Positions 10,459-28,693 of a stretch of 64,000 nucleotides of DNA are shown here, one piece after another. Position numbers and translations under genes: made by a program. The notes below the pieces were generated by a model. The model ran no database searches, had not been told where the DNA came from, and worked only from the letters and a program-made list of their open reading frames with translations. The number at the start of each line of letters is the position of its first letter. The stretch's first letter is position 1. This stretch comes from Streptomyces sp. NBC_01478 (lineage in GTDB: Bacteria; Actinomycetota; Actinomycetes; Streptomycetales; Streptomycetaceae), in the NCBI RefSeq assembly GCF_036227225.1, contig NZ_CP109444.1:1860001-1924000 (forward strand), read 5' to 3'.

Positions 10459-10518
10459 CGTGGCCTCCTGATACCTGGCTGGCATACGGCTCGTAGGTGG
10501 GTCGGAACGGGGTGTGGA

Positions 10519-12421: not shown

Positions 12422-12504
12422 ACGCGCTCACCTTCTTCCTCCGAGGAGTTGACGATCACTCGGACCGGGCCGACCCGACCGTCTGGTGGTCGCCGACTCC
12501 TTCA

Positions 12505-12518
12505 AGGTAACGTTTCCA
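12505..12518. promoter_or_regulatory. LacI-family operator 3 (upstream of ABC transporter row)
   Basis: AGGTAACGTTTCCA matches TGGWAACGTTWCCA with one mismatch. It is in the divergent region between the transporter permease and GH125 and can control either or both. Confidence 0.75.
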
Positions 12519-12571
12519 TTCCCTGGCGATCACACCGTGGCGCACGCCACATGAGGGAGTCAAGAGGCGCG

Positions 12572-13999
12572 ATGGTAACGTTTCCCGGATCAACATCCGG
12601 AACAGTGTGGGCAGTTCCGGAGTCGCTGAGCACGCTCGGCCGACGGCTGGCGGGCGAGTTGCGGGGTGGTCCGGCGGGGGACATCGTCGAGCGGTGCCTG
12701 GCCAACACGTGGGCCACGTCGATGAGTTGGGGGCGTTCACCGGAAGGCCCGGCGAGCGGGTTGCCGGCCGGCGTCTCGGGCGGCTCGACGGACGTACCGT
12801 CGGAGGTCTTCGTGAAGACCGGCGACATCCCGGCGATGTGGCTGCGGGACAGCACGGCGCAGGTCCGCCCCTACCTCGCCGTCGCCACGGACCCGGAGGT
12901 CGGCGACGTCCTGGCCGCCGTCTCACGCCGTCAGATCCGCTGTGTCCTGCTGGACCCGTACGCCAACGCCTTCAACGACGGCCCCACCGGCGCGCACGGC
13001 GAACCGGCCGACCGTCCCGCGCCGGGTGACTGGGTGTGGGAGCGCAAGTACGAACTCGACTCCCTGTGCGCGCCGTTGCAGCTCGCCTACGCGATCCGGC
13101 GGGCCACCGGCCGCGAGGACCATCTCGACGAGGCGTTCCATCGAGCCGCCCGGCTGATCGTGCGGCTGTGGCGGGCGGAGCAGTCCCACGCGGACTCGCC
13201 CTACCGCTTCGTCCGCCCGTCCGGCCCGTTCGCCGGAGACACGCTCCCTCTCAACGGCCGCGGTGGGCAGGTCGGTTGGACCGGCATGACCTGGTCGGGC
13301 TTCCGGCCGAGCGACGACCCTTGTGCCTACGGCTATCTGGTGCCGGCCAACGCGCTGGCGTCGGCGAGCCTGCACGGGCTGGCCGAGCTGGCGGCTGCGG
13401 TGTTGGACGACACCGAACTCGCCCATGAGGCCTGGCGGTTGGCGGACGAGATCGACGCCGGGATCCTGGCACATGCGGTGGTCCCGGTGGACGGCACCGG
13501 GATCCTCGCCTACGAGGTCGACGGCCTCGGCGCCGCGCTGCTCTGCGACGACGCCAACCTCCCGAGCCTGCTGAGCCTCCCGCTGAGCGGTTGGTGCACG
13601 CCGGAGGACCCGCTGTACCGGGCTACTCGCCACTTCGCGCTCTCCGAGGCGAACCCCTGCTATTTCAGCGGGAGTTACGCCTCCGGGATCGGCAGCACGC
13701 ACACACCCGACCGCCACGTCTGGCCGCTGGCGATCGCCACCGCCGGCCTCACGGGCGACACGGACGAGGCCGCGCGAGCACTGGAGACCCTGGCCGCCAC
13801 GACCGCCGGTACCGGCCTGATGCACGAGAGTTTCCATGTCGACGCGCCGGGCCGGTTCACGCGGGACTGGTTCGGCTGGGCAAATGCGATGTTCTGCGAG
13901 CTCGCCCTGGAGGTGTGCGGGGACGGGGTGCGGCAACTGTTTCCGGTGCATCCGCGGGCGTTGCCCGGCGGGTCGGGGACGGGGGGCGGGCCGGCGTGA
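12572..13999 (+). CDS. GH125 exo-alpha-1,6-mannosidase, cytosolic
   Basis: 475 residues with no signal peptide. GH125 signatures are all present: [18 protein letters not shown] near residue 80, [20 protein letters not shown] near 155, [13 protein letters not shown] near 240 and [19 protein letters not shown] near 420. GH125 enzymes remove single mannoses from alpha-1,6-linked manno-oligosaccharides with inversion. The missing signal peptide suggests it acts inside the cell on fragments brought in by the adjacent transporter. The ATG at 12572 lies after GAGG-containing sequence; an in-frame ATG at 12551 would add seven residues. It is divergent from the transporter and overlaps an operator. 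Confidence 0.92.
12573..12586. promoter_or_regulatory. LacI-family operator 4 (overlaps GH125 start codon)
   Basis: TGGTAACGTTTCCC matches the consensus with one mismatch. It overlaps the presumed ATG of GH125, so a bound repressor would block early elongation or an adjacent promoter. Spacing from operator 3 is 68 bases centre to centre. Confidence 0.7.
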
Positions 14000-14047
14000 C
14001 GCTGCGTCATCGACCGAGGCAGGTGGTTGGGAGTCGACAGTGCCCGT

Positions 14048-14531
14048 ATGAACGAACACGCTTCGGGAGGCGAACTCCCTGTGCCACGTGGGCTGTTCTG
14101 GACTCGACTGCGCGCCGGGCGCCGAGACGAGCGGTGACGACACGTCCGGGCGGGGTTGGGAGCGGACCCGGCGGATGGGTGTGAACACGCTCGCCTTCCG
14201 ACTGGCCCAGCACAACAGGCTGTTCACCGTGGACGCGGACTGTGTGCCCTGCGCACCGCAGACGGACTGGAACCTCAACCGGCAGTTCCTGGACCTGGTC
14301 GCACGCTCGGGTACGGCCCTGTTCGTGTCGGTGGATCCCGCCGCCCGCACGGACCATACGGACGCCGATCTCGCGGCGGCCGTCGGGCTCGCGCTGGACG
14401 GCGGGACACCCGGTGGTGTCGAGCAGCTCGACTGGCTCGCCACCACCGCACCTCGTCGCTGGCGGGTCGGTGCCGAGACTCTCGTCTACGACTGGGCCGA
14501 ACCCTGGGGAGCGACGCCTCTGGCTGTCTGA
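14048..14531 (+). pseudogene. Remnant of a glycosidase gene (alpha-galactosidase-like C-terminus)
   Basis: An open stretch from about 14088 encodes WERTRRMGVNTLAFRL, then HNRLFTVDADCVPCAPQTDW and LALDGGTPGGVEQLDWL, wording I associate with the C-terminal part of streptomycete alpha-galactosidase-like (clan GH-D) proteins. The catalytic region is missing. A separate short frame from an ATG at 14048 begins MNEHASGGELPVPRGLFWTR and stops after about 29 codons, which could be the old N-terminus in another frame. I read this as an internally deleted and frameshifted remnant. It ends three bases before the convergent beta-helix gene. Family assignment is from memory of the motif and is not certain. 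Confidence 0.55.
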
Positions 14532-14533
14532 CC

Positions 14534-16174
14534 TCAGGGGGCGATGGTCAGGCTGCCGTAGTCCGAGAGGTTGGTGAGGTTGACCTGGCTCAGGGTGGTC
14601 GCGGCGCTCGTGCTGCCGGGCATCACGATGTGGCTCAGAGCGACGCCCGAAATCGGCGCGCCGGGAAGGCCGTTGACGCGTGCGGCGGTCGTACCGGCGT
14701 TGCGGACCCGGACGTTGGAGATCGTGACGCCGGTGACCGGGCCGATGCCCGCCGTGCTGCCGGTCATCATCGCGAGCCAGGTGCGGTTGCCGTCGTTGCT
14801 GAAGCTGAGCCGTTCGATGTCGATGTCGTCGAACTTGAGGTTCGTCGCGCTCGCCGTGCCGTACTTGTGGTGGACGCCGATGCCGACCGCCGCGTCGTAG
14901 ACGACCACGTGCTGGAAGGTGACCTTGTTCTGCGACTCGTAGACGCCCTGGCCGACCTTGACGCCGTAGCAATAGGTCCAGGAGACAAGGTCGTTGAAGG
15001 TGACGTTGTCCAGCGGGCGGGCGGTGCCGGGGACCGACTTGTAGATGTCGGCGACGTCGGGCCAGGTCTTGGTGCTGAACGGGTCGTCGAGACCGATGCC
15101 GATCGCGTGGTCGACGGTGACGTTCGTGGACTCCATGACGTCGATGCCGTCGTTCTCGCCCATGTCGAACCTGTTGAACAGCTTGATGTTCCGGAAGGTC
15201 AGGTCCGAGGACCGCACCGGGATGACCGCCCAACTGCTGGACTCCCGGAAGGTGATGCCGTCGACCGTGAAGCCGCTCGTGTAGATCGGGGCGAGGAGGT
15301 TCACGCCGAGGTTGGAGGGCGCGAGCGCGGCCTGGCCGTTGCCGTCGATGATGCCGCGGCCGTAGATCTTGATGTTCGTCGAGGAGTACCGGGTGGAGAT
15401 GAACCAGGTGAGGTCACGGCCCTGCGAGGTCTTGTGTCCGGTCACCACATAGTGGCTGGCCTCACCTGTGTAGCGGAGGACCGCGCCGGGGGCGAGGTAG
15501 AACGCGAGGTTGCTGCGCAGGTAGAGGTTGCCGAGGGTGTAGGCGCCGGCCGGGACGTACACGATGCCCTGGGTGCCGTGCGCGGAGCCGTACGCGGCGG
15601 CGTCGTTGAGGGCGTTCTGGAAGGCGGTCGTGGTGTAGGCACCGGTGTTCGGCTGGGCCGAGTAGGGCGCGCTCTGTACGTTGAACACGCCGGTGCCGCC
15701 GGTCGCGGGGTGGTCGGTCTCGGCCGGATCGGCGGCGATGACCAGGTTGGGGCGGCCGTCGAGCTTGACGATCAGGTACTCGTCGTTCTGGACGGTGAAG
15801 GTGAGGGTCGGGCCGCTGACGGTTCCCGTGATCCCCAGCTTCTGCGGGCTGATGCTGTACGCGCCGATGGCCGTGTTGTTGAGCTTGGTGACCGAGAGGG
15901 TGGCGGTGCCGGTGCCGAGGGCGAGCTGAGCGATGTCGTAGCCCGTGTACTTGGTGACGGGTACGGACGTTCCGTTGACGGTCAACTTGTAGTCGGTGGA
16001 GGCCGGGTAGACGGACGGGACCGGGTATGCCGTCACGGTGCCCGTCGCGGCCCGGGCGGGGTGCGGTGTTCCCAGAAGTGCCGCCATGCCGAGCAGAAGT
16101 GCCGTGAGCCCAAGGGCCAGACAGCGCCGGAGGGGACTCCCGGCTCCGGCGATCGGCGTCCGTGGTGAGCTCAT
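14534..16174 (-). CDS. Secreted right-handed beta-helix glycoside hydrolase (GH28-like; GH49/GH87 possible)
   Basis: 546 residues with a signal peptide ending at ARAATG (about 43). Residues about 45-160 look like a beta-sandwich (YKLTVNGTSVPVTKYTGYDI), followed by a parallel beta-helix. The active-site-like strand motifs are GENDGIDVMES, IGLDDPFSTKTW and CYGVKVGQG, resembling the NTD/DD/GHG set of polygalacturonases, though the classic RIK motif is not evident. The N-terminal sandwich plus helix is also the plan of GH49 dextranases and some alpha-glucanases. An operator of the LacI set lies 17 bases before the start, so it belongs to the mannan regulon, which makes a fungal-wall polysaccharide a more likely target than pectin. 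Start ATG at 16174 follows GAGGAC. Confidence 0.8.
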   Translation of the reverse strand: MSSPRTPIAGAGSPLRRCLALGLTALLLGMAALLGTPHPARAATGTVTAYPVPSVYPASTDYKLTVNGTSVPVTKYTGYDIAQLALGTGTATLSVTKLNNTAIGAYSISPQKLGITGTVSGPTLTFTVQNDEYLIVKLDGRPNLVIAADPAETDHPATGGTGVFNVQSAPYSAQPNTGAYTTTAFQNALNDAAAYGSAHGTQGIVYVPAGAYTLGNLYLRSNLAFYLAPGAVLRYTGEASHYVVTGHKTSQGRDLTWFISTRYSSTNIKIYGRGIIDGNGQAALAPSNLGVNLLAPIYTSGFTVDGITFRESSSWAVIPVRSSDLTFRNIKLFNRFDMGENDGIDVMESTNVTVDHAIGIGLDDPFSTKTWPDVADIYKSVPGTARPLDNVTFNDLVSWTYCYGVKVGQGVYESQNKVTFQHVVVYDAAVGIGVHHKYGTASATNLKFDDIDIERLSFSNDGNRTWLAMMTGSTAGIGPVTGVTISNVRVRNAGTTAARVNGLPGAPISGVALSHIVMPGSTSAATTLSQVNLTNLSDYGSLTIAP

Positions 16175-16388: not shown

Positions 16389-17957
16389 GTGACGCTAGAG
16401 GCGACAACATCCCTGACGTCAGTGACAGATACGGCGGACCGGACCGCCGCGCGCATCGCCGACCTGGCACACCGTCGGACGCGGGCGCTGGCCACGGCCG
16501 CGCCGAGAAGACTCGGCGCTCTCGGTGCGCGGGAGCGGATCGAACGGCTGCTGGACGCGGGCTCGTTCGCGGAGACCGGCGGGTTCGTGCGGGCCCGGGC
16601 CGTCGGGGACGGGGCTCAACGCCCTTACGGCGACGGGGTGGTGACCGGATTCGGCACGGTGGACGGGCGGCCGGTCTGTGTCTTCGCGCAGGACTCCACG
16701 GTCTTCGGCGGCAGCATGGGCGAGGCCTTCGGCGAGAAGACCGTGGCCCTCATGGAGCTCGCCCTGAAGACCGGCTGCCCGGTCGTCGGCCTCAACGACT
16801 CCGGCGGCGCCCGCATCCAGGAGGGCGTCAACTCCCTCGCTCTCTACGCCGAGTTGGTGCGCCGCAATGTGAAGGCGTCCGGGGTGATCCCGCAGATCTC
16901 CGTCGTCCTGGGCCCGTGCGCGGGCGGCGCCGCCTACTCCCCCGCCATCACCGACTTCACCGTGATGGTGGACGGCGCGTCGCACATGTTCGTCACCGGC
17001 CCCGACGTCATCGAGGCGGTCACCGGTGAACGCACCACCGCCGAGGAGCTGGGCGGCGCCCGCACCAGCAACTCCGTCAACGGCAACGCCCACTTCCTGG
17101 CGGCCGACGAGGAGGACGCGCTCGACACCGTACGCGAGCTGCTGTCGTACCTGCCCGCCAACAACCTGGAGCGGCCACCGGAGTTCGCGCCCGGTTCCGT
17201 CGCCGACGGCGCCCCGCTGGACACGGTCGTGCCCGACCGGCTCGGGCAGGTCTACGACATGCGGGACATCCTGCACGCGGTCGTCGACGACGGTGAACTC
17301 CTGCATGTGCAGGAGCTGTTCGCGCCGAACATCATCTGTGCGCTGGCCCGCGTGGAGGGGGCGAGTGTCGGGGTCGTCGCCAATCAGCCGCTGCACTCGG
17401 CCGGTGTCCTCGACATCGACGCCTCCGAGAAGGCCGCGCGGTTCGTGCGGTTCTGCGACGCGTTCGGCATCCCGCTGCTGACCTTCGCCGACGTCCCCGG
17501 CTATCTCTCCGGCGTGCGCCAGGAGCGGGGCGGGATCATCCGGCGCGGTGCCAAACTCCTCTACGCGTACGCCGAGGCGACCGTCCCGAAGGTCACCGTG
17601 GTGGTGCGCAAGGCGTACGGCGGCGGGTACGCGGTGATGGGCTCCAAGCACCTCGGCGCCGACCTCAACCTCGCCTGGCCCACGGCCCGTATCGCCGTCA
17701 TGGGCGCGGAGGGTGCCGTGGGCCTGCTGCACCGGCGCGAACTCGCCGCCGCGGCCGAACCCGAGACGCTGCGGGCCGACCTGGTCGCCACGTACGAGTC
17801 CACGCACGGGACGCCGTACCTCGCCGCCGAGCGCGGGTACGTCGACGACGTGATCGCCCCGCGCGACACCCGCGCGCACGTCGGCCGTGCCCTGCGCGCG
17901 CTGCGCGGCAAGCGTGCCCCGATGCCGGAGCGGCGGCACGGCAACATCCCGCTCTGA
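16389..17957 (+). CDS. Acyl-CoA carboxylase beta (carboxyltransferase) subunit, AccD4-like by context
   Basis: 522 residues of a biotin-dependent carboxyltransferase (propionyl-CoA carboxylase beta class). Both crotonase-fold halves are complete: GGSMGEAFGEKTVALMELAL and GGARIQEGVNSLALYAEL with GPCAGGAAYSPA in the first, PGYLSGVRQERGGIIRRGAK and GGGYAVMGSKHLGADLNLAW in the second. It moves CO2 from biotin to an acyl-CoA alpha-carbon. The GTG at 16389 follows GGAGG at 16379-16383. No alpha (biotin carboxylase/carrier) subunit is here; it would be supplied from elsewhere, as in mycobacteria. Placed directly before an acyl-AMP ligase and a Pks13-type synthase, it most likely makes the alpha-carboxyacyl extender; general propionyl-CoA carboxylase is the alternative. 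Confidence 0.9.
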   Translation: MTLEATTSLTSVTDTADRTAARIADLAHRRTRALATAAPRRLGALGARERIERLLDAGSFAETGGFVRARAVGDGAQRPYGDGVVTGFGTVDGRPVCVFAQDSTVFGGSMGEAFGEKTVALMELALKTGCPVVGLNDSGGARIQEGVNSLALYAELVRRNVKASGVIPQISVVLGPCAGGAAYSPAITDFTVMVDGASHMFVTGPDVIEAVTGERTTAEELGGARTSNSVNGNAHFLAADEEDALDTVRELLSYLPANNLERPPEFAPGSVADGAPLDTVVPDRLGQVYDMRDILHAVVDDGELLHVQELFAPNIICALARVEGASVGVVANQPLHSAGVLDIDASEKAARFVRFCDAFGIPLLTFADVPGYLSGVRQERGGIIRRGAKLLYAYAEATVPKVTVVVRKAYGGGYAVMGSKHLGADLNLAWPTARIAVMGAEGAVGLLHRRELAAAAEPETLRADLVATYESTHGTPYLAAERGYVDDVIAPRDTRAHVGRALRALRGKRAPMPERRHGNIPL

Positions 17958-18057
17958 CCGCCCTGTTCGGCCCTCTCGCCCTGTTCGCCCTCGTCGGCCG
18001 ACGCCGCGATGAACCGCGAAGTACCGCACTGTTCCGCGATGTGAGGAGCCACGCCCG

Positions 18058-19800
18058 ATGGACACCCGCCGTCCCCCGCTCGCGCCCGCGTACCGGACTC
18101 TGCCCGAGTACGTGCGGCACTGGGCCGAACTCACCCCGGACCGCCGGGCGTTCACGTTCGTCGACCATCCCGCCCCCGACTCCCGCGGTGTGCACCGCAC
18201 TTTGACCTGGCAGCGGCTGGATCTGCGCGTGCGGGCACTGGCCGCCCGGATCGCCGAGCACGCCGAACCCGGCGCGCGGGTCGCCCTGTTGTGCCCGCAG
18301 GGGACGGACTACATCACCGGATTCCTCGCGGCCCTGACGGCCGGGACGGTGGCCGTGCCGCTGTATCCGCCCGGGCTGCCGGGGCAGGGCGACCGGCTCG
18401 TCGGGGTGTTGGGCGACGCGCGCCCCTCCGTCGTGGTGACCACCGAGCGGGTCCTCGCGGAGGTGACCGACTTCTGCGAGCGCGCCCATGTACCGGTCCT
18501 CGCGGCGGACCGGGTCCCGGACTTCGCCGCCCTCGACTGGCAGGCGCCCGCGCCGGATCCGGCCGCGACCGCCTACCTCCAGTACACCTCCGGCTCCACC
18601 CGCGCCCCGGCCGGCGTGGAGATCACCCACGCCAACGTCGTCGCCAACGCCCGCCAGGCGCTCGCCGCCTACGGTGCCGACACGCATCAGGTGACCTGCG
18701 TGGGCTGGCTGCCGCTCTACCACGACATGGGGCTGGTGCTGAGCGTCGCGGCCCCGGTCGTGCGCGGGCTGCTGTCGGTGCTCATGGATCCGACCGCGTT
18801 CCTCCACGAACCGGCGCGCTGGCTGAGGCTGTTGGCCGCGCATCCGCAGGCGCTGAGCGCCGCGCCCAACTTCGCCTACGACTACTGCGCCTCCGCCGTC
18901 ACCGGGGCGCAGAAGGAGGGGCTGCGGCTGGACGGGGTCGCCGCGTTGCTCAACGGCAGCGAACCCGTCCGGCCCGGCACCGCCGACCGTTTCCACGCCG
19001 CGTTCGCCGCGCAGGGGCTCGCGGCGGACGTGCACTGTCCGTCGTACGGGCTCGCCGAGGCCACCGTCTTCGTCAGCGCCGCCCGGCCCGGCCGCCCGCT
19101 CGGCCGGTTCGCCCTCGACCGTGACGCCCTCACCGCCGGGAAGGCCCTGCCCGCGCGGCCCGACGACCCCCGCGCCGTACTGCTGGCGGGGTGCGGAACG
19201 CCGGTGGGGCAGCGCGTGCGCATCGTCGATCCGGTCGCCCGTGCCGTGCTGACCGAGGGCGAGGTCGGGGAGATCTGGGTGCAGGGTCCGAACGTGGGCC
19301 GCGGCTACTGGAACAACTCCGCGCAGACCGGGAGCGTCTTCGGCGCCACGCTCGGCGCGGACGCGCCGGGGAGTTGGCTGCGCACCGGCGACCTCGGGAC
19401 CGTCCTGGAGGGGCAGTTGATCGTCACCGGCCGGCTCAAGGACCTCATCGTCGTCGACGGCCGCAACCACTATCCGCAGGACGTGGAGGCCACCGCCCAG
19501 GACGCGCATCACGCCGTACGACGCGACCGGCTCGCCGCGTTCGGGGTGCCGGGCGGCATGGGTGAGCGGGTGGTGGTCGTCGTCGAGCACGCGCGCACGA
19601 CCAGCCTCGCCGACATCGACGTACCGGCCCTGACGCAGGCCGTGCGCGCGGCCGTCTCCGCCCGGCACGGGCTGCGGCTCGCCGACGTCGTCCTCGTGGC
19701 GCCGGGCACCGTGCCCCGCACCTCCAGCGGCAAGGTGTCGCGCGCCCTGACCCGCACCCGCTACCTGGAGGGCGCCTACGCGGCGGAGACCGCGGTATGA
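18058..19800 (+). CDS. Fatty acyl-AMP ligase (FadD32-like)
   Basis: 580 residues of the adenylate-forming superfamily. The phosphate-binding loop reads LQYTSGSTRAPAGVEITH near residue 180, a form seen in fatty acyl-AMP ligases. Further motifs are WLPLYHDMGL, SYGLAEAT near residue 330, WLRTGDLG near 443 and GRLKDLIVVDGRNHYPQDVE near 460, the last also typical of this subgroup. The C-terminal lysine region is RTSSGKVSRAL. Such enzymes activate a long-chain acid as acyl-AMP and pass it to an acyl carrier domain without CoA. The stop overlaps the start of the synthase gene by four bases, and that synthase opens with a carrier domain, so the two are partners. A 100-base gap with no evident hairpin separates it from the carboxylase gene. 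Confidence 0.93.
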   Translation: MDTRRPPLAPAYRTLPEYVRHWAELTPDRRAFTFVDHPAPDSRGVHRTLTWQRLDLRVRALAARIAEHAEPGARVALLCPQGTDYITGFLAALTAGTVAVPLYPPGLPGQGDRLVGVLGDARPSVVVTTERVLAEVTDFCERAHVPVLAADRVPDFAALDWQAPAPDPAATAYLQYTSGSTRAPAGVEITHANVVANARQALAAYGADTHQVTCVGWLPLYHDMGLVLSVAAPVVRGLLSVLMDPTAFLHEPARWLRLLAAHPQALSAAPNFAYDYCASAVTGAQKEGLRLDGVAALLNGSEPVRPGTADRFHAAFAAQGLAADVHCPSYGLAEATVFVSAARPGRPLGRFALDRDALTAGKALPARPDDPRAVLLAGCGTPVGQRVRIVDPVARAVLTEGEVGEIWVQGPNVGRGYWNNSAQTGSVFGATLGADAPGSWLRTGDLGTVLEGQLIVTGRLKDLIVVDGRNHYPQDVEATAQDAHHAVRRDRLAAFGVPGGMGERVVVVVEHARTTSLADIDVPALTQAVRAAVSARHGLRLADVVLVAPGTVPRTSSGKVSRALTRTRYLEGAYAAETAV

Positions 19801-22800
19801 CGGCCGCCGACGCGAGAACGCTGCTGCGCCGCCGCATCGCGCAACGGGTCGCCGAGTGGAACGGCACGCCGGTCGACGACGTCCCGACGGACCGACCGCT
19901 CGCCGACCTCGGCATGTCCTCACGCGACGCGGTCGTGCTGGCGGGCGAGTTGTCCTCGCTGACGGGACGTGAGCTGCCGGCGACCCTGCTGTGGGAGGCG
20001 CCGACCGTGGACGCGCTGGTGGAGCGGGTGTGCGGTACGACGATGACACGTGTCGCTCGGGAGACCCCGGCCCCGGTGACACCCGGCGAACCCGTCGCGG
20101 TCATCGGCGTCGGTTGCCGACTGCCGGGCGGGGTGCGCGGTCCGGCCGACTACTGGCGGCTGCTCATCGACGGCGTCGACGCGATCGGCCGCGTTCCCGA
20201 GGACAGATGGGGCGACTTCTCGGCGTTCCCGCCCCCCGAAGTGCCTGTGCACGGCGGGTACTTGGACGACATCGCCGGGTTCGACGCCGACTTCTTCCGC
20301 GTCACCCCGCGCGAGGCCGCGGTGATGGACCCGCAACAACGCATCCTCCTGGAGGTCGTCCGCGAGACCCTCGACCACGCCGCCGTGCCCGCCACCGCTC
20401 TGGCGGGCACGGCCACCGGCATCTACGTCGGTGTCTCGGCCCCGGAGTACGGACAGCTCACCGGCGCCGATGCCGCAGCCGTCGATCCGTGGGCCCCGGC
20501 GGGCGCGGCGCTCAGTGTGACGGCGGGCCGGCTGGCGTACGTGCTGGACACGCACGGGCCCAACATGGCGGTGGACACGGCCTGTTCGTCCTCGCTGGTC
20601 GCCGTGCACCAGGCCTGTGCCAGCCTCCGCAGCGGCGAGACCGACGCGGCGATCGCCGCCGGGGTCAACGTCCTGCTGTCCCCCGTCGTCGGCGTCGCCT
20701 TCCAACGGGCGGGCGCCCTCGCCCCGGACGGCCGCTGCAAGCCCTTCTCCGCGGCGGCGGACGGCATCGGTCGCGGTGAGGGCTGCGCGGCGGTGCTGTT
20801 GAAGCGGCTGTCCGACGCGGAACGGGACGGCGACCGTGTCCTCGCGGTCATCCGGGCCACCGTGGTCAACTCGGACGGCCGCTCGAACGGGCTGCTGGCC
20901 CCCAACCCCGCCGCTCAGCAAGCCCTGTTGACGAGCGCGTACACACGGGCCGGACTCACCCCGGCCCACGTCGACCACGTCGAGGCGCACGGGACCGGCA
21001 CCCCGCTCGGCGACCCGATCGAGGCGGGCGCTCTCGGCGCGGTGCTGGGCGCGGGCCGTGACCCCGAACAGCCGTTGCTGCTCGGCTCGGTGAAGGGGAA
21101 TCTCGGCCATTTGGAGTCCGCCGCGGGCATCACCGGCCTGGTGAAGACGGTCCTCGCCCTCCACCACGACCTCGTCCCGCCCTCGCTGCACGGCGGCACC
21201 CTCGACGACGGACGGCTGCGCCTGGTCACCGAGCCCGAACCCTGGCCCCGCTACGGCGGTACGGCCACCGCGGGCGTCTCGGGCTTCGGGTTCGGCGGCA
21301 CCAACGCCCATGCCGTACTGGAGGAATGGCGGCCCGCGTTCCTCCCGGTCGACACGCCCGACGTCCTCCGGGTGGAAGAGCCCGCCGCCCGCCTGCACCT
21401 CCTCTCCGACGTCGACACCGAGCGGGTCCGCGACACCGCGTCCCGTCTCGCCGCGTGGCTCCGCACCCCCGAAGGGAGCGCCGCCCGCCCCGCCGACGTG
21501 GCGCGCACGCTCGCGGGACGGGCGGGGCGTGGGCCGGTACGTGCGGCGGCCGTCGCGGGTGGCGGGGGCGAACTGGCCGAGGTGCTGGACGCGTTGGGGC
21601 AGGGCGGCCAGGACGCTCGGGTGCTGACCGGCGACCGCGATCTCGTAGGGCGCGGTCCGGTATGGGTGTTCTCCGGGTACGGCAGCCAGTGGACCGGCAT
21701 GGGGCGCCAACTGCTCCTGGAGGAACCGGTGTTCGCCGCCGCCGTGGAGAAGCTCGACGCACAGGTGGCCGACGTGTTCGGCTTCTCGCTCCAGGAGCAC
21801 CTGGCCTCCGCCGGGGATCTCGACTCGCTGGATGCCGCCCAACCTGTCCTGTTCGGCGTCCAGTTGGCGCTCGCCGAGCTGTGGCGGTCGTACGGCGTCG
21901 AACCGGTCGCCGTGATCGGCCACTCCCTGGGCGAGGTGGCCGCCGCCGTCTGCGCGGGCGCGCTGGACGTGGCGGACGCGGCCCGGATCGTCGCCGTACG
22001 GGCTCGGCTGCTCGGGCGGTTGCAGGGCGGCGCGATGGCCGTGGTCGACCTCGCGGACGGCGAACTGCCCACCCTGGAGCGGGACTTCCCGGGGGTTCAC
22101 GTCGCCGTGCACTCCTCGCCCCGGCAGAAGGTCGTCACCGGGGACGAGATGGCCGTGGCCCGGCTGGTGCGCGGGCTGGAGGAGCGAGGGCGAGCCGCCC
22201 GGGTGATGCGGGTCGTCGGTGCCGGGCACTCACCGCAGGTGGATCCGCTGTTGCCGGAACTGGCCGAGGCCCTCGCGGACGTCCGGGGCCGGTCCCCGCG
22301 CATCCCCGTCTACTCGACCGTCCTCGACGAGCCGCGCGGCGCCTGCGAGTTCGACGCCGAGCACTGGGCCGCGAACCTGCGTCGGCCGGTGCGCCTGGAC
22401 CGGGCTCTCGCCGCCGCGGCGGCCGACGGCCACAGCGCCTTCGTCGAGATCTCGCCGCATCCGGTCCTCGCCCGGGCCGCCGCCGACAACGTGCCCGGCG
22501 CTCTCACCGTCGGCTCGCTGCGCCGCGACGCGGCCGGATCCGCCGCGTTCCTCGCGCAGTTGGGCGCCTTGTACGCGGCGGGACTGGACCTGCCGCTGCC
22601 GTCCGGCCGCGTCATCGACCTCCCGGCACCGCGCTGGCGGCACGTCCGGTACTGGTGGACCGACGGCCGAACCCCTGTCGCGGCGCACGCCGCTCACCGC
22701 TGGGCAGAGCCGTCCCCAGCACCGTTCCCGGAGGACTCGCCGGCCGCTCGCGTCAGCCACCACATCGCCACCGTCACCGGCCATCCGGCGGCCCGGATCA

Positions 22801-23744
22801 CCCCCGCCACGGCACTGACCGACCTCGGCCTGGACTCCCTCATGGCCGTCCGCATCCGTACCGCACTGGAACGCGACTTCGGCGTCGAGCTGCACCTGCG
22901 CGACCTCTTCGACGCCACCACGGTCGCCGAACTGGCCGACCGCGTGAGCCAGTTGACCGACTCGACGCACCCCCCGCTCTTCCTCTTCCACGCCGCCGGC
23001 GGAACCACCGACGTCTACCGCGCACTCGGCCAACTCCTGGGCGCCGACCGGCCGGTGCACGGACTGGACCGAATCGAGGACGCCCGTACCGTGTCCGAGA
23101 AGGCCCGCCGCTACGCCGAGGAGATCATCGCCGTCCGTCCCGACGGGCCGTATCTGTTGGGCGGTTGGTCCTTCGGCGGGTTCGTCGCGCAGGAGACGGC
23201 ACGTCAACTCACCGCGTCCGGGCGGGATGTCGGACTCGTCGTGCTCATCGATGCGGTACGCCCCCTCCCCCGGCCGGACCGCGTGCGCACCCATCTCACG
23301 GGTTTCGCCCGGCACATCGCCGACACCTACGGGGTCCGACTCGCCCTGCCCTACGACGAGCTCGTGGCGATGGACGACGACCACGAGCGCATCGACCTCG
23401 TGCTGCGCACCCTGCGCGAGGCCGTGACGGTGCCGCCGGCCGCGTTGGAGCATCAGCGCGCCTCGTACCTGGACCTGCGGATCGGTGAGGCGCACCGGCC
23501 GGGACGGTACGAGGGCCGGGTGGTCCTGTACCGGGCCACCGAACCGGCTCCGCACACCGTGCGCGACCCGGCGTACGAACGGGACGACGACGCGCTCGGC
23601 TGGGACGAGGTGTGCCCGCGGCTGACGGTCGTACCGGTGGCGGGGCATCACCTGTCGCTGCTCGACCCGCCGTACGTCGACGAGATCGCCGCCCATCTGC
23701 GGCGGGTGCTCGCCTCGCCGGGCGGACCCGCCGAATCGGACTGA
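19797..23744 (+). CDS. Pks13-like condensing synthase, ACP-KS-AT-ACP-TE
   Basis: 1315 residues with five domains in the order of mycobacterial Pks13, but without long linkers. An N-terminal carrier domain has DLGMSSRDAV with attachment Ser near 42. The ketosynthase (about 97-510) has DTACSSS (C263), VEAHGTGTPLGDP (H398) and KGNLGHLES (H438). The acyltransferase (about 620-910) has GHSLGE (S710); the specificity position reads GAGHS, neither the malonyl HAFH nor the methylmalonyl YASH form. The second carrier has LGLDSL (S1014). The thioesterase (about 1058-1310) has GGWSFGG (S1125) and a C-terminal GHHLSLLDPPYV His region. There is no ketoreductase. By homology it would join a FAAL-activated acyl chain to a carboxyacyl chain and release an alpha-alkyl beta-keto acyl product, perhaps onto a sugar. 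Confidence 0.93.
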   Translation: MTAADARTLLRRRIAQRVAEWNGTPVDDVPTDRPLADLGMSSRDAVVLAGELSSLTGRELPATLLWEAPTVDALVERVCGTTMTRVARETPAPVTPGEPVAVIGVGCRLPGGVRGPADYWRLLIDGVDAIGRVPEDRWGDFSAFPPPEVPVHGGYLDDIAGFDADFFRVTPREAAVMDPQQRILLEVVRETLDHAAVPATALAGTATGIYVGVSAPEYGQLTGADAAAVDPWAPAGAALSVTAGRLAYVLDTHGPNMAVDTACSSSLVAVHQACASLRSGETDAAIAAGVNVLLSPVVGVAFQRAGALAPDGRCKPFSAAADGIGRGEGCAAVLLKRLSDAERDGDRVLAVIRATVVNSDGRSNGLLAPNPAAQQALLTSAYTRAGLTPAHVDHVEAHGTGTPLGDPIEAGALGAVLGAGRDPEQPLLLGSVKGNLGHLESAAGITGLVKTVLALHHDLVPPSLHGGTLDDGRLRLVTEPEPWPRYGGTATAGVSGFGFGGTNAHAVLEEWRPAFLPVDTPDVLRVEEPAARLHLLSDVDTERVRDTASRLAAWLRTPEGSAARPADVARTLAGRAGRGPVRAAAVAGGGGELAEVLDALGQGGQDARVLTGDRDLVGRGPVWVFSGYGSQWTGMGRQLLLEEPVFAAAVEKLDAQVADVFGFSLQEHLASAGDLDSLDAAQPVLFGVQLALAELWRSYGVEPVAVIGHSLGEVAAAVCAGALDVADAARIVAVRARLLGRLQGGAMAVVDLADGELPTLERDFPGVHVAVHSSPRQKVVTGDEMAVARLVRGLEERGRAARVMRVVGAGHSPQVDPLLPELAEALADVRGRSPRIPVYSTVLDEPRGACEFDAEHWAANLRRPVRLDRALAAAAADGHSAFVEISPHPVLARAAADNVPGALTVGSLRRDAAGSAAFLAQLGALYAAGLDLPLPSGRVIDLPAPRWRHVRYWWTDGRTPVAAHAAHRWAEPSPAPFPEDSPAARVSHHIATVTGHPAARITPATALTDLGLDSLMAVRIRTALERDFGVELHLRDLFDATTVAELADRVSQLTDSTHPPLFLFHAAGGTTDVYRALGQLLGADRPVHGLDRIEDARTVSEKARRYAEEIIAVRPDGPYLLGGWSFGGFVAQETARQLTASGRDVGLVVLIDAVRPLPRPDRVRTHLTGFARHIADTYGVRLALPYDELVAMDDDHERIDLVLRTLREAVTVPPAALEHQRASYLDLRIGEAHRPGRYEGRVVLYRATEPAPHTVRDPAYERDDDALGWDEVCPRLTVVPVAGHHLSLLDPPYVDEIAAHLRRVLASPGGPAESD

Positions 23745-23753
23745 GGAGCCGCC

Positions 23754-24743
23754 ATGCCCTGCCACCGCCCTGCCGGAACGTCCCCGAACGCCGACCGGCC
23801 GCACCCTTCTCCCACCGGCCCGTCCCGCCGTACCGTCGCCCGGGCCACGGCGGCCACGGGACTGGCCGCGCTGTTCGGCGCCACGGTCTCCGTGGGCCGG
23901 GCGCGGGCCGCGACCCAGGTCTCGGCGCGCACCTTCGACGTGTCCGTGGCCTCCCCCGCGCTGGGGCGCAGCGCACCGGTGCGGCTCATCCTGCCGTCGG
24001 ACTTCGCCGCGCAACCCGCTCGGACGTATCCCGTGCTGTATCTGCTGCACGGGGCGCACGACGACTACACGTCCTGGACGCGGGAGACGGACATCGAGGC
24101 GTTCACCGAGGGCCGCGACCTGATCGTGGCGATGCCGGACGCGGGTCCCACCGGCATTCCGAGTGCCTGGCGCGGCGGCCCGGACTACGAGACCTTCCAA
24201 CTCCAGGAGATTCCGGCGCTGTTGGCCCGCGACTACCGGGCGTCCGGGGTGCGGGCCGTCGCCGGGGTGTCCACCGGGGGTTACGGCGCGATGGCGCACG
24301 CGGCCCGCCATCCGGGCGCGTTCACCGCCGCCGCGTCCTACAGCGGCATCCTCGACACCACGGCGCCCGGGGTGCCCTCGCTGGTGGACGCGATCGTGGC
24401 CCGCGAGAGCTTGTCGCCGCTCTCCCTGTGGGGCAATCCCCTGCTGGACGCGCCGACTTGGCGCGGCTTCAATCCGCGCGCCCAGGCCGGCGGGCTGCGC
24501 GGGACGCCCTTGTACGTGTCCAACGGCAGTGGTGTGGTGGGAGGTTCGGGCGACTGGCTGCCGGAGGCGCTGGAGAGTCTGCTGTGGCCCTCCGCGCACA
24601 GTTTCACCGGCGTTCTCGCGCTGCTCGGCATTCCGGTCACCACGCACTTCTACTCGGGTGGTGGACACAGTTGGGCTTACTGGAAAGGGGAGTTCACGGC
24701 CTCGTGGCCGATGCTCGCCGGTGCGCTGGGGCTGCCGGAGTGA
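23754..24743 (+). CDS. Secreted antigen-85-like acyltransferase/esterase (PF00756 family)
   Basis: 329 residues. The N-terminus has TGPSRRTVARATAATGLAAL, a twin-arginine-like signal, with cleavage near GRARA (51). The alpha/beta hydrolase domain has YPVLYLLHGAHDDYTSW, nucleophile elbow GVSTGGYGAM (S173) and GGGHSWAYWKGEF (H305), which closely resembles the HSWEYW stretch of antigen 85 mycolyltransferases. Antigen 85 proteins move mycolyl groups from trehalose monomycolate to envelope glycans or trehalose. Nine bases separate it from the synthase gene and GGAG precedes the start, so it is in the same operon. By context it would transfer the synthase product outside the cell; a plain esterase role is the alternative. 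Confidence 0.88.
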   Translation: MPCHRPAGTSPNADRPHPSPTGPSRRTVARATAATGLAALFGATVSVGRARAATQVSARTFDVSVASPALGRSAPVRLILPSDFAAQPARTYPVLYLLHGAHDDYTSWTRETDIEAFTEGRDLIVAMPDAGPTGIPSAWRGGPDYETFQLQEIPALLARDYRASGVRAVAGVSTGGYGAMAHAARHPGAFTAAASYSGILDTTAPGVPSLVDAIVARESLSPLSLWGNPLLDAPTWRGFNPRAQAGGLRGTPLYVSNGSGVVGGSGDWLPEALESLLWPSAHSFTGVLALLGIPVTTHFYSGGGHSWAYWKGEFTASWPMLAGALGLPE

Positions 24744-24865
24744 TGTCGGTGCAGCCGGGGCACGGAACGGAGCGCAGGGGACGTCCGTCCAACACGGGAC
24801 GTCCCCCTCGTCCCACGGGCAACGGTCCGTGGGCGAGCCGCCTCCGGGGGAAAGGAGTGTCCGTC

Positions 24866-26122
24866 GTGGCTGTCCCCACCCCGCGCGGAGTACCCACCGA
24901 GCCCGGAACGGCGCTGGTTCCCCCCGACCTGGCCGAGCTGCTGCGCGCCCAACTCGCCGCCGTCTCCAGCGAGGTGGAGGAGGTGGTGCGCAGCCAGGTG
25001 CCCGAGTACGCGCGGCCGGCCGACGGGACCTACCGCGAAAACCTCAGGTCCGGGGTGGTGCAGGCGCTCACGCTGTTCGTCGACCACATCGCGGACCCGC
25101 ACGGCCAGAACGCCGCGATGGCGGCGGCGTACTACGAGGAACTCGGGCGCGGCGAGGCCCTGGAGGGCCGCAGCCTGGAGGCGCTCCAGTCGGCGATCCG
25201 CGTGGGCGGGATGCACGCCTGGCGGCTGATGGGCCGTACGGCGGAGGAACTCGGCCTGGATTCGGCGGTGGTGGCCGCGCTGGGCGAGCTGGCGTTCCGG
25301 ACCGTGCACGAGGTCGCGGAGGCGGCCGCCGCCGGGTACGCGCAGGCGCAGTCCCGCAGCGCGGGCGAGGTGGAGCGGCGGCGCCGAAGACTGCTCGAAC
25401 TGCTGCTGGGCGAGGGGCCGTTGGCGCCGGAGGCGCTGCAGGACCTGGCGCACGGCGCGCGCTGGCGGGTGCCGTCGCGGGTTGCCGTGATCGCGCTGGC
25501 GGGCCCCGCGGACCCACGTGCGGAGGACCGGCCGCCGGCGATGCCGGGCGCGCTGGCGGACATGGAGTCCCGGCCGCCGCGGGTGCTGGTGCCGGACCCG
25601 GAGGGCTACGGCCGGTTCGGCGGGCGGTCGTTCGTCCTCGGCCTGGGCGGCCGTCCGGCGGCGATCGGTCCTACGGTGCCGGTCGTCGAGGCCGCGCGGT
25701 CCTTGCACTGGGCGACGCGGGCGTTGGGGCTGATGGGCCGCGGGGTGCTGCCCCGGCAGGGCGTGGTGCTGTGCGCCGACCATCTCTCGACGCTGCTGCT
25801 GCACAGCGACGAACCGCTGCTGGCCCAACTGGAGTTACGGGCCCTCGCACCGCTGGACGCCGCTTCCGAGGGCCAACGCCCGCGGCTGGCCGAGACCTTG
25901 CTGGCCTGGCTGCTCAGCGGCAGCAACGTCCCCGATGTCGCCGCCCGGCTCCACATCCACCCGCAGACGGTCCGCTATCGCCTGCGCCAACTGGAGAAGC
26001 TCTTCGGCGCGTCCCTGCACGACCCGGGAACCCGCCTTGATCTGATCCTCGCGCTGCGTTCGGCGGAATTACGGGACGGTGAGCACGACTCACGACCCGA
26101 CAAAAACAGAGACGGTTTCTGA
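24866..26122 (+). CDS. PucR-type transcriptional regulator with two TTA codons
   Basis: 418 residues. The C-terminus carries the PucR/CdaR-type helix-turn-helix: SNVPDVAARLHIHPQTVRYR followed by LRQLEKLFG near residues 350-385. The middle is a GGDEF-like/PucR linker, and the N-terminal half (about 20-170) is helical. AAAGGAG at 24851-24857 sets the GTG at 24866; a GTG at 24857 lies inside that ribosome site. Leucines 324 and 402 are encoded by TTA (25835-25837 and 26069-26071), so synthesis should depend on the bldA tRNA. It sits 122 bases after the acyltransferase gene on the same strand and may control the cassette. Confidence 0.88.
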   Translation: MAVPTPRGVPTEPGTALVPPDLAELLRAQLAAVSSEVEEVVRSQVPEYARPADGTYRENLRSGVVQALTLFVDHIADPHGQNAAMAAAYYEELGRGEALEGRSLEALQSAIRVGGMHAWRLMGRTAEELGLDSAVVAALGELAFRTVHEVAEAAAAGYAQAQSRSAGEVERRRRRLLELLLGEGPLAPEALQDLAHGARWRVPSRVAVIALAGPADPRAEDRPPAMPGALADMESRPPRVLVPDPEGYGRFGGRSFVLGLGGRPAAIGPTVPVVEAARSLHWATRALGLMGRGVLPRQGVVLCADHLSTLLLHSDEPLLAQLELRALAPLDAASEGQRPRLAETLLAWLLSGSNVPDVAARLHIHPQTVRYRLRQLEKLFGASLHDPGTRLDLILALRSAELRDGEHDSRPDKNRDGF

Positions 26123-26216
26123 ATTCCCGTCCATAACACCGGTCACGGGAACGCGAATACCTTCGGGACAGTCCTTTCCACAGGCGCCGCAAGCGCCCCA
26201 CCCTCAAAGGATTCCC

Positions 26217-26858
26217 ATGCGTATTCGCTTATGCCTCGCCGCGCTCTCGCTGGCCGGCGGGGCCGGGCTCGCCACCCTCTCCGCACCCGCCGCGTCGGCC
26301 GCCACCTGTTCGGATCTCGATGTCGTGGCAGCCCGTGGCACCTTCGAGCCGGGCACACTCGGCCTGATCGTCGGCGACCCGGTGTTCTCCGCGCTCCAGC
26401 AGAAAATCACCGGAAAGACTCTCTCCAGCTATGCGGTGAACTATCCGGCCGACCTTTCCCTCACGTCCGCCGCGACGGGAAACCTCGATGTGGTGAATCA
26501 CGTCAACGCGCAGGCGGCGGCCTGCCCGAATCAGCGTTTCATTCTCGTCGGCTATTCGCAGGGCGCGAACGTCGTCGACAACTCCCTCGGAATCAGCAGC
26601 GACGGCGCGGTGGTCGGCAGCCCGATCGTGGCGACCATCCCCGCGGCGGTCGAGCCGAAGGTCGCCGCGGTGCTGCTGTTCGGCAACCCGATCCGGGCCC
26701 TCGGCAAGAGCGTCACCGGCACCTACCAGAGCCGCACCATCGACTTCTGTGCCAACGGTGACCCCATCTGCCAGAACGGCGGAACCGACGTCCTCGCCCA
26801 CCTCGGCTACACCTCCGACGCGGGCGCGGCGGCGACGTTCGCCGCGGGCAGGATCTGA
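26217..26858 (+). CDS. Secreted cutinase-family esterase (Culp-like)
   Basis: 213 residues with a Sec signal ending at APAASA (about 28). The mature protein begins ATCSDLDVVAARGTFEPGTL, the usual cutinase start. The catalytic Ser is in ILVGYSQGANVVDN (S114); Asp is in GDPICQNG (about D182) and His in VLAHLGY (about H195). Four cysteines allow the two family disulfides. The fifth codon is TTA (26229-26231), giving bldA dependence like the regulator before it. In mycobacteria a cutinase-like enzyme (Rv3802c) is encoded within the mycolate locus, which gives this location meaning; hydrolysis of plant cutin or lipid esters is the simple alternative. A strong hairpin follows the gene. Confidence 0.9.
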   Translation: MRIRLCLAALSLAGGAGLATLSAPAASAATCSDLDVVAARGTFEPGTLGLIVGDPVFSALQQKITGKTLSSYAVNYPADLSLTSAATGNLDVVNHVNAQAAACPNQRFILVGYSQGANVVDNSLGISSDGAVVGSPIVATIPAAVEPKVAAVLLFGNPIRALGKSVTGTYQSRTIDFCANGDPICQNGGTDVLAHLGYTSDAGAAATFAAGRI

Positions 26859-26891
26859 GCCGTAGCAACGCGGCAGGGCGCGAACAAGACG

Positions 26892-26925
26892 GTAGGGCCC
26901 GGGAGTTGACCCTCCCGGGCCCTAC
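26892..26925. terminator. Perfect 14-bp hairpin between convergent genes
   Basis: GTAGGGCCCGGGAG (26892-26905) pairs perfectly with CTCCCGGGCCCTAC (26912-26925) around a six-base loop. It sits between the cutinase stop and the stop of the minus-strand hydrolase, so it can end transcription from both sides. Confidence 0.85.
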
Positions 26926-26941
26926 TGGTGCGCGGGGAGGG

Positions 26942-28693
26942 CTACTTGGGCGACAGGGCGAACGCGGCGAGGCTGCTGGAGACGATCTCGGGCCGGCCGT
27001 TGTTCTGGACGGGCGCCGCCGTCAGGACGTCCAGGTGCTGGTAGCCGGGGGCGATCACGGGGTGCAGGTCGGCCGGGATGTGGCCGGCCAGCAGTCCGTC
27101 GCCCGCGAGCACGGTGAGCGTCGGGTTGGCGGTCAACCCGCCCGGGTGCACGAGGAGTTGCTTCACCTGGGGCGAGGTGGCCAGCTCGATGTCGGTGACC
27201 AGCTTCGTCGGGAAGTACTGCTCGGTGAAGTCCAGCGGCTGCTCCCCCATGCTGCGGGCCAGTTCGTGGATGTCGGTGACTTCCTTGGACGCGCCGGTGA
27301 AGGGAGTCCCGTCCGCGGACCGGTAGCCGGGGTCGTCGGCGGCGCCGACCCGGTCGTAGTTCCGCCAGGTGTAGAGCGGGCCGTGCGGCTGGGCCGGGAT
27401 GGCCTTGTACTCGACGCCGAAGAGCTGCGACTGGTCCGAACTCCCGTTGGCGGCGGGGAAGTTCTTGTCGGTGAGCGGGCCGCCGTCGAAGAGGCCGACG
27501 CTGCTCTGCAGGAACGCGAGGGGGACGGAGTTGTCGTCCATGAGCGAGCCGAGGACGGCGTCGTTGGTGAGCCGGAAGTCCTTCACCGCGGGTGAGCCGG
27601 TGAGGAAGGTGGCGGTGTCCTTGGAGAACAGGAAGCGGTTCGTGGCCTCGATGTTGACGTTGGAGGGGAGATAGGCGGGCAGGTCCGCCTCGCCGTCGGG
27701 GGCGCGGACGGCGCCGAGTCCCGCGATCGCGAGCAGGGTCATGGTCTCGGGGTTGAGCAGCACGGGCGCGGACAGCGAGCGCGAGAGGAGCCCGCTGTCG
27801 AGCCCGGCCTGTACGACGCCGTAACCGAGCCCGATGTCAGGCAGGTTGGTGTCGTCGGGGATGCTGCCGCTCAGGTCCGCGAGCGAGGTGGAGATGGTCG
27901 TGTCGAGGGCGAAGTAGCCGGCGCACTGGTTCTGTCCGGCGTCCGCCGTGGTGGCGGGGTTGCCGTCGAAGTCGGCCGCCGCGAAGTACCCGGTGATCAC
28001 GCCGCCGAGCGAGTGTCCGCCGCACAGCACCTTGCGCTTGCGCAGCCCCTGGTCGGGCAACTCGGCGACGAGCAGGTCGTATTCGTCGCGCACGGTCTGT
28101 TCGATGCCGAGCTTCGCCATCCAGCCGAGCTGGTCGTTGCCGACGTACCCGGCGAAGGTCCGGCCGCCGACGGCCTTGCCCCGGTAGTAGTAGTCGACGG
28201 CCGTGTGCTGGTCGCCGGAGGCGACACCGGTGGGATCCTCAAGGCAGTTGGAGCGCCGGTCCAGGGCCCAGAACTCGATGTGCCGTCCCTGCGCGGCGGC
28301 TTGGGCGACCGTGTCGCGGGCGACGCTGTCGAACGCGCCGGCCCCCTCCAGGATGCCGGGCTGGGCCACGAGGATCCGGTCGGCGTCGGCCGACGCGCTC
28401 GGCCCGTCGGCGGCGCGGTAGCGCAGATACGACAGCCAGTCGCACGCCCCCGGACGGGCGCCGAACGACTGCGGTAACGGCACTTTCACCCGCACCACCG
28501 ACTCGGCCACACCGTCGGCGGGATGTGTCGACGCGACCGGGGTCTCGGTGCGCGCGCTCTCGCCCTGTGCCTGCGGGGCGGCCACGGTGAGCGCGCCCGC
28601 GGTCAACAGCGCCGCGAGCGCGGCACCGCGCCATGTACGTCCGGTCCTCGTGGCTCCGCGCCACGAACTTCCTTTGCTGCGACTCGTGTTCAT
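26942..28693 (-). CDS. Secreted alpha/beta hydrolase of unknown substrate
   Basis: 583 residues. A basic N-terminus, then a hydrophobic stretch AALAALLTAGALTVAAP, then AQG-type cleavage near 43. The nucleophile elbow CGGHSLGGVITGYFAAAD lies near residue 225, and a C-terminal GYQHLDVLTAAPV supplies a His. Long insertions around the cap region make it larger than usual lipases. It ends just inside the shared hairpin from the cutinase, so this is the third secreted serine hydrolase gene within five kilobases. I do not recognise a specific family beyond the alpha/beta fold; lipid or ester hydrolysis outside the cell is likely. Confidence 0.8.
   Translation of the reverse strand: MNTSRSKGSSWRGATRTGRTWRGAALAALLTAGALTVAAPQAQGESARTETPVASTHPADGVAESVVRVKVPLPQSFGARPGACDWLSYLRYRAADGPSASADADRILVAQPGILEGAGAFDSVARDTVAQAAAQGRHIEFWALDRRSNCLEDPTGVASGDQHTAVDYYYRGKAVGGRTFAGYVGNDQLGWMAKLGIEQTVRDEYDLLVAELPDQGLRKRKVLCGGHSLGGVITGYFAAADFDGNPATTADAGQNQCAGYFALDTTISTSLADLSGSIPDDTNLPDIGLGYGVVQAGLDSGLLSRSLSAPVLLNPETMTLLAIAGLGAVRAPDGEADLPAYLPSNVNIEATNRFLFSKDTATFLTGSPAVKDFRLTNDAVLGSLMDDNSVPLAFLQSSVGLFDGGPLTDKNFPAANGSSDQSQLFGVEYKAIPAQPHGPLYTWRNYDRVGAADDPGYRSADGTPFTGASKEVTDIHELARSMGEQPLDFTEQYFPTKLVTDIELATSPQVKQLLVHPGGLTANPTLTVLAGDGLLAGHIPADLHPVIAPGYQHLDVLTAAPVQNNGRPEIVSSSLAAFALSPK

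Follow-up and report, generated by a model that had tools for sequence, protein, structure and literature searches.

We identified a seven-gene cassette in the soil bacterium Streptomyces sp. NBC_01478 that probably joins two acyl chains into an alpha-branched, beta-oxygenated lipid for export. It occupies positions 16389-28693 of the window (the whole stretch of 64,000 nucleotides that was analysed), in a host genome of 12.12 Mb that consists of a single contig. That the core of the cassette works like the accD4-fadD32-pks13-fbp genes of the mycolate system is well supported, as far as sequence tells; strict identity with that system is not supported. We infer every reaction discussed below from gene content, domain order and residues, which were read directly. 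No description of the cassette in Streptomyces was found in the open-licence PMC papers that were searched.

Six of the seven genes lie on the forward strand, and every domain named for their products exceeds its Pfam cut-off. The first, accD (16389-17957), encodes an acyl-CoA carboxylase beta subunit (Carboxyl_trans) and begins with a GTG placed after GGAGG. It is followed by the gene of a fatty acyl-AMP ligase (FAAL; 18058-19800; AMP-binding), whose stop is joined by an ATGA overlap to the start of a synthase of 1315 amino acids (19797-23744). The synthase consists of an acyl carrier protein (ACP), a ketosynthase (KS), an acyltransferase (AT), a second ACP and a thioesterase (TE), matched by the Pfam domains ketoacyl-synt, Acyl_transf_1, PP-binding (twice) and Thioesterase; the catalytic motifs are intact in both ACPs, the KS, the AT and the TE. 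Nine bases separate its stop from the start of an exported acyltransferase gene (23754-24743; Esterase), whose product resembles antigen 85 (Ag85) and PS1 and bears a twin-arginine-like signal. A PucR-type regulator (about 24866-26122, start uncertain; HTH_30) and a secreted cutinase (26217-26858, from its ATG; Cutinase, PF01083) complete the series. Coordinates, Pfam matches and motifs agree on this layout, and thus bear out an earlier note on this DNA, which had described six genes on one strand at these positions, the FAAL/synthase overlap and the nine-base gap. The seventh gene (26942-28693) is convergent, on the reverse strand, and encodes a hydrolase-like protein of 583 amino acids.

The seven genes form a conserved unit. 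An alignment of eight Ag85-like proteins yielded 124 relatives in named genomes, and the loci of the best 80 of these 124 were compared (79 titled Streptomyces, one Actinobacteria bacterium), with parts called at a threshold of 40 bits. All seven genes were found in identical order and orientation in 60 of the 80 loci; L084 has the same seven plus an extra PucR hit, and 10 loci merely end at a contig edge (L055, L066, L091, L094-L096, L108, L110, L113 and L124). Another three (L102, L128, L129) are cut upstream and are without the cutinase and the seventh gene downstream. In the last six, one or more parts are missing inside the stretch: the seventh gene in L097 and L130; the cutinase and the seventh gene in L131; both of these and a regulator beside the core in L132 and L134, which keep accD; and accD, the cutinase and the seventh gene in L133. 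Where enough upstream sequence was available, the FAAL was present in 69/69 loci and accD in 68/69, while 72 of the 80 hold the cutinase and 69 the seventh gene (the latter in 78/91 under another threshold). Open reading frames (ORFs) outside the block recur in at most 9/91 loci. Those immediately 5' of accD do so in at most 5/91, where the view extends over only about 2.5 kb and farther ORFs lie outside most loci's view. The co-occurrence of the cassette genes is therefore more than chance and, given that the convergent 583-residue gene is conserved across loci while the flanking ORFs are not, we extend the unit to position 28693. The distances of the core genes correlate at 0.60-0.73 (four genes, 77 loci) and at 0.45-0.63 in 73 type-1 loci, values that shared species ancestry can explain, and therefore nothing rests on them here. 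Three named strains carry two cassettes each (L055/L129, L065/L130 and L056/L131). The second copies L130 and L131 cluster together in the KS, AT, AccD, FAAL and Ag85 trees, as if the cassette had moved as a unit.

Among curated models and solved structures, the cassette synthase is closest to Pks13. Its best NCBIfam model is mycolic_Pks13 (NF040607, 1137 bits), its top relatives of solved structure are Pks13 chains, and Pfam gives it the Pks13 domain order ACP-KS-AT-ACP-TE. In a KS tree of 45 rows (tree rows throughout are samples of the loci), the cassette, its relatives and Pks13 share one side of a 98/98 branch. After the addition of 15 KS domains found near FAALs of the families f6 and f19 (the enlarged tree omits L013, L016, L018 and L160 as well as one of the two L054 rows), six PpsA-like domains join the cassette side (100/99) and nine stay out. 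An AT tree of 57 rows, without L034, L037 and L039, which have no AT match, gives the same split (98/98), with PpsA-like rows again on the cassette side. In both the KS and the AT tree, six Pks13 rows make up a separate clade (100/100); the cassette falls outside it, though on its side of the starred branch. Together with the FAAL tree described below, these trees exclude that the synthase is of the modular type or an ordinary Streptomyces polyketide synthase (PKS) paired with a FAAL. The earlier note had named a place among short-chain polyketide loaders as counting against a mycolate-like synthesis. The synthase stands apart from the modular and ordinary FAAL-PKS of Streptomyces that were tested, although the PpsA-like mycobacterial synthases share its side.

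The FAAL finds its best NCBIfam match in a fatty-acid--AMP ligase subfamily (559 bits, under the cut-off of 775), and reaches 507 bits on the FadD32 model NF038339, short of the 975 required. In a tree of 56 rows, cassette FAALs, FadD32 and 10 of 11 MYCFAAL rows (mycobacterial or f19) stand together at 98/98; on the other side are nine comparison FAALs (eight from the genus, one from f19) and one f19 MYCFAAL row. The best solved relative of the Ag85-like protein is Corynebacterium PS1 (6sx4, 130 bits), and a loose twin-arginine (RR) pattern lies upstream in the Ag85-like proteins of 74/87 loci. As in PS1 and antigen 85, all members of the Pfam Esterase family, the catalytic residues are kept in the rows counted: Ser in 103/103, His in 102/102, and an acidic residue, picked by alignment only, that is Glu in 99 and Asp in 3 of 102. 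An ordinary esterase of the host was rejected as an identity for this protein, since among seven other own loci (L002-L008) three gave partial matches on very long branches and four gave none. A first Ag85 tree had placed f19 proteins with the mycolyltransferases (96/92), a grouping that was lost once 17 Streptomyces proteins were added and the three own-esterase rows removed. Sixteen loci hold a more distant Streptomyces Ag85-like protein, five of them with synthase pieces nearby and 11 without (weak ligase hits of 25-27% in L208 were left uncounted).

The extender side is described by two short signatures. The AT specificity motif, GAGH(S) at 22218-22232, reads GAGH in the window and in all 68 loci of L055-L129 that have an AT match when aligned across loci; in Pks13 it is GASH in 4/7 and GAGH in 3/7 loci, and comparator ATs mostly have YASH, VASH or VAPH. 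This motif has been described to track extender specificity (PMC6164871); in our view, the Gly in place of Tyr, His or Val might make room for a long branch. Regarding the carboxylase, PccB is reported to prefer short chains and the stambomycin alkylmalonyl-CoA carboxylase MccB to take hexanoyl-CoA, with the pocket changes Asp to Ala and Phe to Gly (PMC5187497). The same source presents the pocket Phe as universal in carboxylases known for four carbons or less, and Ala plus loss of Phe as fitting MccB to longer acyl-CoAs (PMC5187497). Aligned to PccB, the cassette AccD has Val at the Phe position (which we number 161, counted from the Tyr that PMC5187497 names) and Ala at the Asp position, the best aligned chain being a form of PccB that itself carries Ala there. 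The short-chain Phe/Asp pair, whose loss we took as the mark of an AccD4-type subunit, is thus gone. Like MccB as portrayed in that paper, the cassette AccD has Ala at the Asp position and no Phe at the equivalent of 161; unlike it, it carries Val rather than Gly there, and MccB feeds a modular macrolide synthase (PMC5187497). Across 74 type-1 loci the pair is Val/Ala in 73, as in the window, and Ile/Ala in one. Elsewhere we found Ala/Ala (L130, L131), Val/Ala (L132, L134) and Gly/Ala (two EXT loci), and in mycolata AccD4 Gly, Ser or Ala, each with Ala, in 7/7. The paralogues of the host genome show Phe/Asp (L188, PccB-like), Phe/Ile (L187, L189, L190), Phe/Tyr (L192) and Thr/Tyr (L193). A partial second accD lies outside the window (G000:C1:1529271-1529702; L194, L198) and shares 66% identity with residues 1-194 of the cassette accD. 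The 19-kb stretch around it held no other cassette gene match, and it is perhaps a remnant.

We favour a condensation of two fatty acyl chains because the synthase has Pks13 as its best curated and solved match and the KS, AT and FAAL trees place the cassette on the side of Pks13, FadD32 and the PpsA-like lineage, because the AT motif GAGH and the Val/Ala pair of AccD differ from the short-chain types, and because the FAAL (69/69) and accD (68/69) are so constant and the FAAL-PKS-Ag85 trio persists in divergent loci. In such a pathway, the FAAL would activate a free fatty acid to acyl-AMP and load it onto the N-terminal ACP, from which it would reach the KS cysteine. Most likely, this chain is one of the usual C14-C18 acids of Streptomyces, which would make corynomycolate, and not the very long mycolates, the nearest chemical analogue of the product. 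AccD would pair with a biotinylated alpha subunit, presumably encoded outside the block, to carboxylate a medium- or long-chain acyl-CoA, and the AT, with its Gly in place of Tyr, His or Val, would put the bulky carboxyacyl unit on the second ACP. A single decarboxylating Claisen condensation by the KS would then give a 2-alkyl-3-oxoacyl chain, which the TE could either free or pass to a sugar or glycerol acceptor. Finally, the exported Ag85-like enzyme would re-esterify the chain outside the membrane. The Streptomyces type-1 cassette would have gained the regulator, the cutinase and the second secreted hydrolase-like protein, perhaps for ester remodelling or recycling.

Several observations weigh against this pathway, which would most likely be wrong in that the extender unit is small or the product diffusible. 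The 1137 bits of the synthase are far under the Pks13 cut-off of 2100 (mycolata L161 scores 2831 on the same model, the divergent L053 1286), and the trees leave the branching order of Pks13, EXT and the cassette unresolved. The AccD tree, from which L190 (identical to L189), L191 (a duplicate) and L194 (partial) were left out, joins cassette, EXT and AccD4 at 91/96, a branch that is not starred. Moreover, the Val of the cassette takes up more room than the Gly found in most AccD4s and may restrict the alpha chain to a medium length. Atypical motifs also occur among the comparator ATs (GAPH in L185, AAGH in L017, VAGH in L186), and GAGH is not fixed in the divergent core, which has AAGH in L049, L050, L052, L053 and L132-L134, GAAH in L146, AAAH in L149 and GGAH in L156-L158. 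A 100/100 branch parts 40 cassette-type and related Ag85 rows from 16 mycolyltransferase rows, drawn from seven mycolata loci; unlike PS1 and antigen 85, the cassette protein thus belongs to a separate clade and is excluded as a true mycolyltransferase. PpsA-like synthases, which we take to be users of small extenders, share the cassette side, and therefore lineage alone is no proof of a long alpha branch.

A small extender would fit a FAAL-fed synthase of methyl-branched lipids of the PpsA or MAS kind, extending with malonyl or methylmalonyl units to a short-branched beta-keto acid, ester or pyrone instead of a mycolate-like chain, which we consider unlikely. The KS-AT region does align continuously to MAS (649 bits), the protein is labelled phthiocerol synthesis PKS A in some source annotations, and the nearest solved relatives of the cassette AccD are PccB, a point that also counts against the condensation of two long chains. 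The mycobacterial synthases that we call PpsA-like, a label by resemblance (L175, L179, L180, L183), adjoin a FAAL as in the cassette, and both their KS and their AT fall in the starred groups together with it. However, their ATs carry VASH or VAPH instead of GAGH, and no accD or Ag85-like match lies in their stretches. The Phe/Asp signature is missing from AccD in 74/74 type-1 loci, methylmalonyl-CoA would hardly seem to call for an AccD of its own, and the conserved block holds no second synthase gene.

Alternatively, the product might leave the cell as a diffusible metabolite, with the beta-keto acid released and then decarboxylated to a long-chain ketone or esterified to a small alcohol, to serve as a signal, surfactant or antibiotic with no envelope role; the Ag85-like protein would then be a tailoring esterase. 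We hold this to be possible, if somewhat doubtful; it shares the first steps with the condensation of two acyl chains, and our probabilities for the readings do not sum to one. Neither a ketoreductase nor an exporter was recognised among the seven genes, the genome having not been searched for CmrA/Rv2509 or MmpL3. This lack from the block suits a diffusible product and weighs against the pathway favoured above. In a mycobacterial reductase mutant, the beta-keto acid is reported to decarboxylate to a ketone (PMC2568869), and by analogy a freed product of the cassette could do the same. The distribution in the genus is as expected of specialised metabolism: a cassette-type Ag85 (above 420 bits; the next score is 277) occurs in at least 53 of 392 genomes, a lower bound since in G001 the short contig that carries the cassette FAAL and synthase breaks off ahead of the Ag85 gene. 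The Ag85 alignment matches 110 of the 392 at E 1e-60 or better, and a FAAL orthologue of at least 78% identity is present in 9 of 101 genus genomes, this one included, with four more having one of 51-57%. The PucR-type regulator, which is conserved in the cassette loci, the sharp borders of the block and the absence of EmbABC would also agree with a diffusible product. In contrast, the exported Ag85-like protein remains the neighbour of the synthase in loci where accD, the regulator and the cutinase do not adjoin (L049, L050, L053, L133), which speaks against a diffusible product.

How far does the likeness to the mycolate system extend? Family f6 (L161-L167) is taken as mycolata since L161 passes the Pks13 cut-off and its seven loci group accD, synthase, FAAL and Ag85-like genes. 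Like the accD4-pks13-fadD32-fbp locus of f6, the cassette has the same enzyme types side by side (7/7 f6 loci), the same synthase domain order, an AT motif of the GASH/GAGH kind and a non-short-chain AccD signature. Unlike that locus, it places accD first and the FAAL before the synthase, stays under the Pks13 and FadD32 cut-offs, and has an Ag85-like protein of a separate clade. Its synthase has no dehydratase (DH)-like region, the Pfam AT ending at residue 929 and the second ACP starting at 987, whereas Pks13 is described as retaining a pseudo-dehydratase (DH*) between AT and ACP (PMC11649247). EmbABC (PF04602) was found in 0/25 genomes, this one included, with C. glutamicum as a positive control, and therefore a mycolate-style attachment to arabinogalactan is unlikely. 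Thus, of the mycolate analogy drawn in the earlier note, the resemblance of the core to accD4-fadD32-pks13-fbp stands, whereas that of the cutinase falls away, and the data lend no support to the envelope or spore lipid proposed there. Nor are the five genes a transplanted mycolate operon: gene order differs, synthase and FAAL are sub-cut-off, and the Ag85-like protein lies outside the mycolyltransferase clade.

The cutinase, which the earlier note had set beside the mycobacterial Rv3802c, scores 23 bits on the Culp6/Rv3802c model NF050160 (cut-off 570), and among solved structures it comes closest to a carbohydrate-esterase-5 chain; both exclude it as the Rv3802c counterpart. Missing from divergent cassettes such as L131-L134 and not a Culp6, it looks like a later addition. 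The seventh gene product begins with a signal-like stretch and contains the motif GHSLGG, which resembles a nucleophile elbow; no match for it was found in Pfam, NCBIfam or solved structures. Food for thought is whether these two proteins could free cutin or suberin acids that the FAAL would channel into a storage or surface lipid. The cutinase is indeed the sole PF01083 match of the genome, its carbohydrate-esterase-5 relative would suit plant polyesters, and the locus list includes plant-associated species, e.g. S. stelliscabiei and S. ipomoeae. Nonetheless, the FAAL-PKS-Ag85 trio persists without a cutinase in divergent cassettes, which therefore places the cutinase outside the basic mechanism, and we regard plant-polyester use as very improbable.

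FAAL, synthase and Ag85 are the older core. The trio is kept at roughly 43-60% identity without an adjoining accD in divergent loci of Streptomyces and of its order (L049, L050, L053 and L133), and outside the order the identity of the core Ag85 falls to 37%. There, FAAL-PKS-Ag85 occurs in f20 (L156-L158), in f48 (L149) and, in other gene orders, in f19 (L153, L159), FAAL-PKS-accD-Ag85 in f48 (L150) and FAAL-PKS-accD in f20 (L146). Among 18 non-mycolata loci of f19, f20 and f48 that were picked for a high FAAL score, seven have FAAL, synthase and Ag85 (L149, L150, L153, L156-L159), one FAAL, synthase and accD (L146), and one a FAAL with a distant synthase (L160). Another five (L143-L145, L147, L148) pair a FAAL with an Ag85-like match but have no synthase, and the remaining four (L151, L152, L154, L155) show the FAAL by itself or beside weak KS hits; nine of the 18 are without a synthase match, or without Ag85 and accD. 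In the five f19 loci lacking a synthase match, the FAAL and Ag85-like matches lie inside one 20-kb stretch. In all, the core was found in Streptomyces and a second family of the same order; beyond the order, and not counting the mycolata family, three more families of the class have it. In three synthases that were scanned (L156, L150, L052), the insert between AT and ACP carries DH and ketoreductase (KR) domains; KR is absent from L053, L132 and the Pks13 of L161. A KR-like YAAAN/YATAN string occurs in six insert synthases (L146, L149, L150, L052, L156, L157), five of which, all except L052, also have a dehydratase-like string. Given that several relatives have DH and KR between AT and ACP, and that Pks13 keeps its DH*, both Pks13 and the shorter Streptomyces synthase may have been trimmed from a reducing ancestor that made beta-hydroxy products unaided. 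Pks13-type condensation could then be an old actinobacterial trait, and the mycolate pathway a single offshoot within a larger family of branched lipids that are exported, a view that we put forward tentatively.

Upstream of the cassette, the window encodes a solute-binding protein, a GH125 alpha-mannosidase and a GH28 hydrolase (9163-15700), and on the other side, on the reverse strand at 31376-34030, a large WD40-repeat protein with an nSTAND1 NTPase match. Two carboxyltransferase genes of equal score and with identical matched rows lie elsewhere in the genome (G000:C1:245346-246800 and 11878008-11879462); they are equidistant from the contig ends and in opposite orientation, as expected of terminal inverted repeats.

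The cassette hints that the condensation of two fatty acids reaches beyond the mycobacterial group. A conserved and genetically tractable cousin of that system in Streptomyces would point to an undescribed class of exported lipid in a much-studied genus. Additionally, the cassette would supply outgroups for tracing how Pks13, FadD32 and antigen 85 evolved.

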